Shown piece after piece: positions 16,165 to 63,666 of a stretch of 64,000 nt of DNA. The notes beneath the pieces were generated by a model. The model was not told where the DNA came from, made no database searches, and was given only the letters and a program-made list of their open reading frames with translations. The stretch is from NCBI GenBank assembly GCA_013151915.1, contig JAADHJ010000008.1:1-64000 (forward strand). Direction: 5' to 3'. A program made the translations under genes and the position numbers. Position 1 is the first letter of the stretch. Each line of letters begins with the position of its first letter. Origin of the DNA: Deltaproteobacteria bacterium (lineage in GTDB: Bacteria; BMS3Abin14).

Positions 16165-16190
16165 AGGGTCGTAAAAAGTCCATTTCGACT
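16165..16190. repeat. Remnant of modular hairpin repeat (family B)
   Basis: Only the GGGTCGTAAAAAGTCCATTT end of the family B element is present here, next to the stop of the thioredoxin gene. Better copies are at 48341-48500 and 62036-62334. Confidence 0.5.
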
Positions 16191-18657: not shown

Positions 18658-18696
18658 AGCGACGTTGCTCCCCGAGCCGAAGCAGTCTCGGTATGC

Positions 18697-18870
18697 GGGA
18701 TTGCCGCATCGTCACGCTGTCGGCATGACTCCTCGCAATGACATCGCTCAAAACGGTCTTCTCTGGACTCTGGACTGCCTCACTCCGTTGGACCCTAAGT
18801 TCCAGATACTTCGGCACTTCGATACCCCCATACGCCCCTACGCCCTTACGCCCTTACTGCCAAACACGTC
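18697..18870. repeat. Repeat-rich gap: family A palindrome and short tandem phrases
   Basis: Bases 18697-18743 hold a family A palindrome (GGGATTGCCGCATCG ... CCTCGCAATGACA). It is followed by CTCTGGACTCTGGACTG (18761-18777), then CTTCGGCACTTCGATACCCC and a run of CCCTTACG units near 18831-18860. The gap between the two thioredoxin genes (18658-18950) shows no coding signal. Confidence 0.55.
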
Positions 18871-19496: not shown

Positions 19497-19823
19497 CCCC
19501 CCTTACCGAGATTGATAGAGTCGTAAAAAGTCCATTCGCGGCTTTTTACTCCGCGCCCTCCCCGGGCGCCTTGATGACTTTTTACGAAGTCATCAAGATT
19601 CATCAGCTTGTGAAATATTTTCCGGCAACGGTCCTTTTTAAGCTAAACGAACTGTAAGTGTCAATAAAATCATGGAATGCCGGCAGAGTTTCGCGGAGTG
19701 AAACAAAGTCAAAAGCTAATTCACCATTGCCTATTGCCCACTTCCACACCTCGATACTTCCATACCCCCACACAGGGGCCTCCCCTTTACTTGGACTCTG
19801 AAACCATGTAATTTGAGGTCCCT
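19497..19823. other. Intergenic region with family B and C repeats
   Basis: Bases 19514-19598 hold a shortened family B element: the GTCGTAAAAAGTCC hairpin, the GCGCCC/GGGCGC hairpin and the GATGACTT/AAGTCATC hairpin, without the two middle modules seen in full copies. Bases 19707-19724 carry a GTCAAAAGCTAATTCACC repeat, and 19749-19770 a CGATACTTCCATACCCCC phrase. No gene is seen. Confidence 0.55.
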
Positions 19824-40104: not shown

Positions 40105-40186
40105 CTTGATGACTTTTGCAAAAAGTCATCAAGGCGCCTGTTGAAGGGCGCGCAAATCGAAGATTAGTGAGGAAAGTGAAAATGAA
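40105..40186. repeat. Truncated family B hairpin repeat
   Basis: It contains the GATGACTT/AAGTCATC hairpin, the GGCGCC...GGGCGC hairpin and the short AAATCGAAGATT hairpin, then stops inside the GGAAAGTGAAAATG module. It lies between the PpiC-like and thioredoxin genes. Confidence 0.55.
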
Positions 40187-40203
40187 GGGGGGATCATCCC
40201 CCC
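40187..40203 (-). terminator. G/C-run hairpin after thioredoxin gene
   Basis: GGGGGGA and TCCCCCC pair around a TCA loop just downstream of the stop of the minus-strand thioredoxin gene. There is no clear T-run, so termination is possible but not certain. Confidence 0.35.
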
Positions 40204-40214
40204 CCCCAGGAAAT

Positions 40215-48305: not shown

Positions 48306-48340
48306 TCCTTATTAAAGGACGTTCAATGTTCAACGTTCAA

Positions 48341-48500
48341 CATTGATAGGGTCGCAAAAAGTCCATTAATGGCTTTTTACTCCACGGAAAGCGAAAAATG
48401 TCATTTTCACTTTCCTTGCAAATCAATGACTTGCAACGCAAGTTATTGATTTGGCGCCCTTCCGTGGGCGCGTTGATGACTTTTTGCGAAGTCATCAACA
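48341..48500. repeat. Full-length family B modular hairpin element
   Basis: Read on the minus strand, five inverted repeats follow each other: GATGACTT/AAGTCATC, GCGCCC/GGGCGC, AAATCAATAACTTGC/GCAAGTCATTGATTT, GGAAAGTGAAAA/TTTTCGCTTTCC and AAAAAGCCATT/AATGGACTTTTT. The element is about 160 bases. It lies upstream of the histidine kinase gene in the 48306-48588 gap, which also has GTTCAATGTTCAACGTTCAA at 48321-48340. No gene is seen there. Confidence 0.6.
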
Positions 48501-48588
48501 TTGGACACTGGACCGGGTTAGGGGATCTCCGGCGCTCCCTCCGGCAGGCAGTTTTTCGACAGGGTCACCCGACCCCGATGCATGACAG

Positions 48589-53009: not shown

Positions 53010-53511
53010 CTTACTCCTCCCATGCCTCAGCAAAACAGGCTCCCAACTTCCTGAAATTGAAACGGCTCCAGATATGACAACCTCGTAAAAAGTCTCTTCA
53101 CCCCAGGATGCACGCTCCGCGCACATCATATCTGATGGACTTTTTACGAGCCCACCAAATATATTTTTCACAATGTGGTTGAAATCACCCAGTATATTAT
53201 TAAGTTCGGAAATCCATGTCAACTAAAAGGGTGTGACCGGCGTCCATGGCGGGACGTGTATGGAGGGGGAAGGCGGGGTGGCGCGGAGAGAGTTATTCAT
53301 GTCATGGCGATGACCCTCACTTGTGTCATTGCGAACTGATTACTGTGTGAAGCAATCTCGCGTGCCGAGACTGCTTCGGCACAGGGAGAGGCCTCGCAGT
53401 GACAAACTACTTCCCCGGCCTGAGCCACGCCGATGGTGTGATCGAAGTCTAGACCCCAGAACCCAGATTCTAGACCCTGAATTCTTGACCCCAGACCCTG
53501 ACTTTAAGGCT
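53010..53511. other. Intergenic region with palindrome and repeat phrases
   Basis: Bases 53081-53153 form a family B-like palindrome (CTCGTAAAAAGTC ... GACTTTTTACGAG). Bases 53325-53404 are a long family A copy (GTCATTGCGAACTG ... CCTCGCAGTGACA). From 53452 to 53504 a run of GACCCCAGA and TCTAGACCC phrases precedes the ccsA stop. No gene is seen. Confidence 0.5.
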
Positions 53512-59066: not shown

Positions 59067-59113
59067 GTCAAGTCCTCCGGCAAAACGGTTTGAACAACAG
59101 ATCTCGTGGAATT

Positions 59114-59136
59114 GAAAAGCTAATTTAACACAGGGT
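59114..59136. repeat. Family C repeat
   Basis: GAAAAGCTAATTTAACACAG, matching the copies at 89-111 and 1999-2016, sits upstream of the M16 gene. Confidence 0.5.
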
Positions 59137-60796: not shown

Positions 60797-61157
60797 GGAG
60801 CAGCTCGCCGCGGCAAAGCACGTTGTTGGAGATCACGGAGAAAACCTTACAGCACCAATTCCTTATAATCCCAATCCAGATCCAAAATGTATTTTTTAAC
60901 AGGGATGAAGGGGTGATAAAATAATGCGCCACTCCTTAACCCAAAAGATTTCTGATTTTATCCGCTTCCGATGTTTGCCTTATCCCTTCCATCCCCTTCA
61001 TCCCTGTTAAATCAGCATTTTCGCTGCGGCTCCCCATGGTCGCCACACGAGATCGCTTCGCATAGTTTCAGCTCGCGATGACAGGCCTTGTGCTTATCCT
61101 CCACGTGTCCCTGCATCCGCTCTTCCCCTCTGGACTCTGGACACTGGACATTCACTT
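60797..61157. other. Intergenic region bounded by inverted family D repeats
   Basis: TTTAACAGGGATGAAGGGG at 60895-60913 and its inverted counterpart CCCCTTCATCCCTGTTAAA at 60993-61011 face each other across about 80 bases. A degenerate family A palindrome lies at 61048-61083 and CTCTGGACTCTGGACACTGG at 61128-61147. No gene is seen. Confidence 0.55.
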
Positions 61158-61943: not shown

Positions 61944-62035
61944 CTCCCAACCTTACGATTATATAATTTTATTCTAATATTCAAATGTACCATTGACAGC
62001 CGTCCCTTTGGAGGTTACTATTGCGTACACGAAAG

Positions 62036-62334
62036 TTGATGACTTCGCAAAAAGTCATCAATGCGCCCACATAAGGGGCGCTCAAATCGAAGATTTGTGA
62101 GGAAAGTGAAAATGACACTTTTCGCTTTCCGTGGAGTAAAAAGCCATTAACGGACTTTTTACGACCCTATCAATATTGATGACTTCACAAAAATCATCAA
62201 TGCGCCCATTTTAGGGGGCGCCCAAATCAACAATTTGCAGTGCAAGTTGTTGATTTGGGAGGAAAGTGAAAATGACATTTTTCGCTTTCCGTGGAGTAAA
62301 AAGCCATGGGGGACTTTTTACGACCCTATCAAAG
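62036..62334. repeat. Two tandem family B modular hairpin elements upstream of trxA
   Basis: Copy one (62036-62175) has the GATGACTTCGCAAAAAGTCA hairpin, the GCGCCC/GGGCGC hairpin, the short AAATCGAAGATTT hairpin, then the GGAAAG...CTTTCC and AAAAAGCC...GGACTTTTT modules. Copy two (62176-62334) is the same except that the middle hairpin is expanded to a 32-base form (AAATCAACAATTTGCA pairing with its complement). The 61944-62417 gap has no gene. Confidence 0.65.
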
Positions 62335-62369
62335 TCGATGGACTCGCAAAGAGTCCATCGACCTTTTTA
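62334..62369 (+). terminator. Hairpin with T-run just before trxA
   Basis: GTCGATGGACTC (62334-62345) pairs perfectly with GAGTCCATCGAC (62351-62362) around a GCAAA loop, followed by CTTTTT. It looks like an intrinsic terminator in the plus direction, about 50 bases before the trxA start, so it could attenuate read-through into trxA. Confidence 0.5.
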
Positions 62370-63208: not shown

Positions 63209-63666
63209 GGTGTTCACCTCCTTTTCATCAAAAACGCGTTTCTCTCCACAAATAGAGGATGCATAACTCCCACGAAGGGAAATGTCAACCAGGATTTCGG
63301 AGGTAGCGCAACGTGGCAAAACAGTCCAGAGTCCAGAGTCCAGAGGTGAAAAGTGGAATGGGGGAAAGTTCAAACCTTTTATCTCACGCCCGCTCGTCAC
63401 ACCAGAAAAGTGACTCGCTAAAGCCGCAAAGCTCGCAAAGTAGGCCGCGCACCCTCACCAAAGCTGATTTCAGAGAAATCCTTCTCCCTTAGGGAGAAAT
63501 CGGGTGAGGGGAAATATGAATAATTAATAAAGATCGGAAAGAGAAATTTTTCTGAATTATTTGATTTTCTTTGCGTCCTTTGCGGCTTTGCCTGTCCCGA
63601 GCCTGCCTGCAGTGAGCCTGTCGAACTGTCGAGGGGCGTGAGACCGGACTTGGAATCAGCCCCGGT
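63209..63666. other. Repeat-rich intergenic region
   Basis: It contains CAGTCCAGAGTCCAGAGTCC (63323-63342), an AAAGCCGCAAAGCTCGCAAAG phrase near 63420 with a related CTTTGCGTCCTTTGCGGCTT near 63570, and CTTCTCCCTTAGGGAGAA near 63481. A CCGAGCCTGCCTGCAGTGAG and GAGCCTGTCGAACTGTCGAG pair lies near 63597-63636. No gene is supported. Confidence 0.45.

Follow-up and report, generated by a model that had tools for sequence, protein, structure and literature searches.

Pneumococcal BOX and other modular repeats consist of modules that keep a fixed order and are gained or lost, as in the repeat described here, whose sequence and tips differ from theirs. REP, BIME and REPIN sequences are likewise palindromic, mosaic and intergenic and form tandem arrays. 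Bacterial MITEs of the IS630/Tc1 type, such as Correia/NEMIS and RUP, resemble the present repeat in that they are small, abundant and intergenic, carry terminal inverted repeats and hairpins, and are accompanied by a 2-bp duplication; their target is TA (PMC2229807). The IS30 family and IS30-type MITEs share with it a 2-bp duplication, a near-palindromic target, insertion into their own inverted repeats and a 2-bp junction. IS30 is reported to join its repeats at a 2-bp spacing and to target near-palindromic hot spots as well as its own repeats (PMC9333248). No earlier description of the repeat was found in the open-access literature (ISfinder and subscription journals lay outside this search). 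Three identities had been proposed in the first-pass annotation, a non-autonomous mobile element, a REP-type BIME and a structured RNA. In our view the repeat is very probably a non-autonomous transposable element (MITE), because it has terminal inverted repeats, 2-bp target duplications, sites that are empty in a sister genome and end-to-end insertions.

The window is the whole stretch of DNA analysed, that is the first 64,000 nucleotides of contig JAADHJ010000008.1 of a Deltaproteobacteria bacterium, whose genome is hereafter called the home genome. One full copy, with a long middle hairpin, lies on the − strand at 48343-48498 (H1-H2-H3long-H4-H5 on that strand) between two CA dinucleotides (48341-48342 and 48499-48500); it matches the copy at 62176 with an E value of 2.4e-43. 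Two others form a tandem pair on the + strand, the first at 62036-62173, with a short middle hairpin (fold z −7.5), and the second at 62176-62332, with a long one. They are separated by the 2-bp spacer TA (62174-62175). An AG stands to the left of the pair (62034-62035) and the same dinucleotide to its right (62333-62334); AG thus brackets the entire pair (62036-62332). The first-pass annotation had recognised these full copies and their five hairpins in a fixed order, and folding is indeed strong for either strand, with z values near −7 to −8 relative to dinucleotide shuffles whether the single strand is taken as RNA or DNA. The ends it assigned to the copies took in the 2-bp duplications, and the limits given above are the proper ones.

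In the orientation of the copy at 62176, the modules are H1 (TTGATGACTTCGYAAAAAGTCATCAA), H2 (GCGCCC..GGGCGC), H3 (CAAATC..GATTTG), H4 (GGAAAGTGAAAATGA..TTTTCGCTTTCC) and H5 (GTAAAAAGCC..GGACTTTTTAC), followed by GACCCTATCAA. In the first member of the tandem pair, H1 is a near-perfect palindrome of 26 nt (62036-62061), the first 21 nt of which are the terminal inverted repeat TTGATGACTTCGCAAAAAGTC. H2 (62063-62081) is a hairpin with a loop that varies in the alignment of copies, H3 is the short form CAAATC-GAA-GATTTG (62083-62097), and H4 (GGAAAGTGAAAATGACACTTTTCGCTTTCC, 62101-62130) has a 12-bp stem. The 3′ half of H5 (62136-62162) starts the second terminal inverted repeat, which ends in GACCCTATCAA at 62173. 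The tip reads TTGATGACTTCGTAAAAAGTCA forwards in H1 and TTGATAGGGTCGTAAAAAGTCC backwards from the end of H5, a single sequence in inverted orientation. Both tips are inverted copies of the 21-bp sequence TTGATNNNNTCGYAAAAAGTC, and the terminal inverted repeats coincide with the outer half of each end hairpin (H1 and H5), a feature that goes beyond the first-pass annotation, as does the second family described below. No gene lies inside the element, which is a row of hairpins only. The middle hairpin had been described as having a 13-base and an approximately 32-base form; a short and a long form do exist, measuring 15 nt and 35-37 nt, and a third, of about 55 nt, occurs elsewhere in the genome. 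The latter characterizes the 177-bp class, where a further palindrome is nested within the H3 stem.

Incomplete copies proposed at 19514-19598, 40105-40186 and 16165-16190 are also real, with slightly different limits. The first, on the − strand at 19512-19596, is a clean 85-bp internal-deletion form that lacks two modules (H1+H2+H5, both tips kept; fold z −6.05) and is flanked by GA (19510-19511 and 19597-19598). The second, on the + strand from 40106 to about 40185, contains H1, H2, the short H3 and the left arm of H4, inside which it is cut. It runs into a GGGGGGATCATCCCCCC hairpin (40186-40208), possibly a terminator or a truncation scar. The third, on the − strand from 16160 to about 16183, is a remnant that keeps the H5-side tip alone. 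Across 1.52 Mb of the home genome, units bounded by tips cluster at discrete lengths (49 bp and approximately 137, 157 and 177 bp), alongside occasional units of 61, 85, 89, 102 and 112 bp. In the 49-bp form, the left half of H1 runs directly into the right half of H5; in the 61-bp form, an H2 arm is followed by the right arm of H5; the 102-bp form is H1+H4+H5. The shorter forms (49, 61, 85 and 102 bp) are internal deletions, some of them with duplications of their own: duplications were found for 11 of 30 units in the 49-bp class (shuffled mean 1.9) and for 7 of 20 in the 55-130-bp class (shuffled mean 1.4). Several deletion forms have thus moved as such. A solitary 26-bp H1 was considered as the minimal element and rejected; six solitary cases are without duplication, and most still adjoin H2 sequence.

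A second family has tips of the same kind (GGAC/AACC variants) and a different interior (about 102 bp), built around GGATGTGCGCGG; a 53-bp short form exists. In the window it is represented on the + strand at 53074-53158, with an AT/AT duplication and an interior unrelated to that of the five-hairpin element, and at 62335-62361, where the hairpin TCGATGGACTCGCAAAGAGTCCATCGA, also on the + strand and 2 bp from the tandem pair, resembles its tip hairpin. Further sites are C6:31781-31882, C6:58969-59069 and C3:5027-5138 in the home contigs. The window also carries other repeats. A dispersed palindromic repeat, TGTCATTGCGAACYGATYACYGWGTGAAGCAATCYCG, occurs with inverted copies at 49-85, 53324-53360, 18659-18704 and 53352-53397; we take it to resemble the widely seen GTCATTGCGAG...GAAGCAATC repeats. 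Short intergenic repeats of the types GTTCAACGTTCAAC and CTCTGGACTCTGGACACTGGAC are often located beside the elements (48321-48340, 48500-48512, 61116-61149, 63324-63357 and 18761-18790). Another repeat, AAAAGCTAATTTAACACAG, has four copies (87-107, 1993-2013, 19706-19726 and 59110-59130) and a partial inverted copy near 2045-2075.

Further copies are abundant in the home genome. In its 2.27 Mb, at least 44 matches to the 62176 copy score above 130 bits, a lower bound because only part of the candidates was scored, and shorter matches come in addition. The tip pattern TTGATNNNNTCGYAAAAAGTC is found at 590 places with up to 3 mismatches, compared with 8 for the reversed control. A chance origin is excluded by these two counts. 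Once tips are merged, 1.52 Mb contain 207 sites, about one per 7 kb, or about 310 per genome by extrapolation. The copies are essentially intergenic, as had been claimed, though the confinement is not strict: 38 of the 207 sites overlap ORFs in crude ORF calls, mostly at ORF ends. By simple codon-based gene calls, which make these counts crude, 124 copies lie in co-directional, 26 in divergent and 11 in convergent gaps, the corresponding shares of intergenic bases being 66, 19 and 15%. With 11 of 161 copies against 15% of the bases, convergent gene ends are not a preferred location, and a function there as a terminator or in the manner of a REP is not favoured.

The expected flanking duplications are present and measure 2 bp. 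Flanks agree over 2 bp for 37 of 107 tip pairs at home (shuffled mean 7.6, maximum 18) and for 55 of 80 in other genomes (shuffled mean 7.6, maximum 17). A fit over 3 bp is seen in a minority, 8 at home against 1.9 after shuffling and 11 in other genomes against 1.6; agreement over 4 bp is absent from all 107 and 80 pairs. The duplication is still visible in only about one third of the home copies. The duplicated dinucleotide varies (CA, TA, TT, AC, TG, TC, CC, AG, GA and others), TA accounting for 5 of 37 cases at home and 11 of 55 elsewhere. The joined target is YAA-NN-TTR; in other genomes its two most conserved positions are A and T, each in 98% of cases. Moreover, when tips face outwards within 60 bp of each other, 23 of 39 cases are exactly 2 bp apart. 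This abutment arises because a resident tip beside its duplication itself resembles the target.

Comparison with the genome of a sister species in the same genus, G001, reveals recent movement. The two sequences align over 488 kb at 84.7% identity. For 35 home insertions both flanks could be located in G001, and the insertion is missing in 27 cases, the same in 2 and different in 6. In 17 of the 27, the flanks meet within about 30 bp; in the other 10 the flank match is less regular, and the figure of 27 therefore means absence rather than clean empty sites. The full copy at 48343-48498 is absent from the corresponding place, and the cleanest empty sites are those of C33:90729-90865 and of the second-family copy at 53074-53158. 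At C33:20150-20286, 137 bp at home correspond to 27 bp in G001, consisting of two joined tips only, so that one and the same site directly shows modules gained or lost. Counts of the H4 motif are 81 in 1.5 Mb of home sequence and 2 in 0.8 Mb of G001.

Behind the observed outcome, that is inverted tips, a 2-bp duplication, a symmetric target, abutment and recent insertions, the following course of events may be proposed. A transposase supplied in trans would bind TCGYAAAAAGTC and cut at TTGAT/ATCAA, and staggered joining by 2 bp would place the element in YAA-NN-TTR and duplicate NN. Resident tips close to a target sequence would then give rise to tandem copies 2 bp apart. Interior hairpins are modules whose loss leaves the element still able to insert, this loss and the inversion of loops presumably proceeding by template switching or by deletion between hairpins. 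As judged from stems that are steadier than loops, the hairpins probably aid transposition or host tolerance. The enzyme would be of the cut-and-join (DDE) type and would act like IS30, with a 2-bp stagger, a symmetric target and targeting of its own ends; by analogy with IS30, we give this likeness about even chances, and membership of the IS30 family is not claimed. The tips of the element differ from those of IS30, and the home genome has no IS30 transposase at the thresholds used. With respect to IS630/Tc1-type MITEs, the difference is that the dinucleotide is free within YAA-NN-TTR.

Other ways of moving the repeat have been considered. Joined end to end, the tips read ATCAA-NN-TTGAT, which is symmetric about its middle dinucleotide, and the target is symmetric too, as would be expected if a serine recombinase rather than a DDE transposase acted at a palindrome with an overlap of 2 bp. 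However, such a recombinase needs matching overlaps, whereas the dinucleotide is free among copies of one family, which makes this explanation very improbable. The REP/BIME option, in which palindromes are moved by a single-strand Y1 (RAYT) transposase, agrees with intergenic, palindromic, mosaic and tandem copies and with two intact RAYT-like genes (C37 and C44) in the home genome. Yet REPs have no such target duplication or paired inverted tips, the flanks examined for both RAYT-like genes are devoid of these tips, and so are those of 29 Y1 loci from many genomes. Nor does Y1 track the elements: G002, with two Y1 genes, has no elements, and G007, G008, G010 and G011 have elements but gave no Y1 match. 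Since, in addition, convergent gaps are not favoured, this option can hardly be upheld. As for the transposase of the MITE that we prefer, no IS30, IS630 (DDE_3), DDE_Tnp_1 or ISAzo13 gene was detected in the home genome at the thresholds used, and rve gave one broken match. Among sampled IS30, IS630/DDE_3, IS4/IS5 (DDE_Tnp_1), ISAzo13 and rve loci from up to 33 genomes, none is bounded by a pair of the tips, an incomplete negative given the sampling of at most 30 loci per search with 1.5-kb flanks. IS30 was rejected as a partner, its matches being found in 4 of 33 genomes, all with other ends. Within the 3.47 Mb examined, no transposase could be recognised between tip pairs, and where the two tips are spaced by 0.6-4 kb and show the proper duplication, they enclose apparent host ORFs only. 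Longer tip pairs considered as autonomous elements (at home, 0.8-2.5 kb; L204, with a sigma-factor-like gene) look like two elements around host genes. The transposase may have been lost in the lineage, or may be rare, very divergent or located outside any insertion sequence.

The hairpins themselves raise the question of an RNA. Among 72 home copies, stems diverge by 0.8% in H3, 2.3% in H4 and 5-7% in H1, H2 and H5, compared with 24-38% for the loops of the latter three and 11% for the outer tip. The aligned copies were picked by their tips, which are nonetheless more divergent than the stems. That stems are more constant than tips is unexpected for a pure passenger, and counts against the MITE as the best explanation. 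Pair changes on both sides number 34, versus 6.9 after shuffling (maximum 16). These observations, together with the strong folding of both strands, are what a structured RNA would predict, whether regulator, terminator or processing site, if it were the functional unit, with copies kept by selection on neighbouring genes and dispersal being secondary. The paired changes lie mostly in the three outermost pairs of H1 and in a single pair of H5. In some copies the H1 loop is inverted (TTTTTACGAA for TTCGTAAAAA); covariation alone is no proof of selection, because template switching inside a hairpin gives both loop inversion and repaired arms. Against an RNA as the primary identity, most copies are not shared by the sister species G001, convergent gaps are not preferred, many mobile forms are without the interior, and no Rfam family reaches its gathering score. 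The psRNA14 family, the best match below threshold, was discarded, with 31.9 bits for a gathering score of 60, as a generic two-hairpin match without close sequence likeness. Altogether, a structured RNA is improbable and is not needed to identify the repeat. Without selection, the difference between stems and loops is less easily accounted for, and hairpin formation, in DNA or RNA, seems to be constrained. For a MITE, the constancy of the stems may mean that source copies have to keep them in order to move, or that the host uses them.

The phylum of the window is represented by 12 genomes of a single family, and the tips are found in 11 of them, G002 being without any. Among 278 genomes surveyed outside the family, G127 has 78 exact tips and G299 has 124, three genomes have one, and the rest have none. 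G127 and G299 belong to families unrelated to each other or to that of the window's bacterium, and the G127 tips listed fall into few variants, perhaps a sign of recent activity. In named genomes, at least 118 stretches carry the tips, and nearly all of the matches listed are labelled Desulfobacterota or Deltaproteobacteria; a single record each from Nitrospirae and Neomarinimicrobiota may reflect misbinning. At the Desulfobacterota loci, the same tips surround quite different, often palindromic interiors, and the H4 motif is absent from all Desulfobacterota or Deltaproteobacteria tip loci examined. Thus, the tips are widely shared and, so far as sampled, the five-hairpin interior is confined to the family of the window. 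Many Desulfobacterota elements with these tips (L126, L130, L142, L147, L153, L178 and others) enclose GTCATTCCGGCGAAAGCCGGAATCCAG-type palindromes, which are apparently a widespread repeat themselves, either as nested elements or as shared cargo. Plasmids and phages gave chance matches only. Viral contigs from IMG/VR gave 7 tip matches, none of them next to a recognisable transposase; element-like sequence is present in L368 and L371-L373. In L371-L373, three closely similar contigs, this sequence and its tip stand at the identical place by phage-like genes, and such elements may therefore also enter phages or prophages.

The elements rank among the most abundant intergenic features of their lineage, and elements with the same ends crowd the genomes of many relatives among sulfate reducers. 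If the transposase were named, much of the repeat DNA in these bacteria would be explained, and G002, a complete tip-free genome of the same family, provides a natural control for finding it by gene content. The constant stems and variable loops offer a testable case for hairpins mattering in MITE movement. It is tempting, albeit speculative and rather unlikely, to imagine that thousands of short elements, in Desulfobacterota as well as in the small phylum of the window, depend on a single transposase lineage, which would differ from ordinary insertion sequences and might be a host-kept gene. This enzyme would recognise TTGAT-N4-TCGYAAAAAGTC, act with a 2-bp stagger at YAA-NN-TTR and use the interior hairpins of its passengers. 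If true, such a transposase would explain both why the stems are kept and why autonomous copies are not seen.
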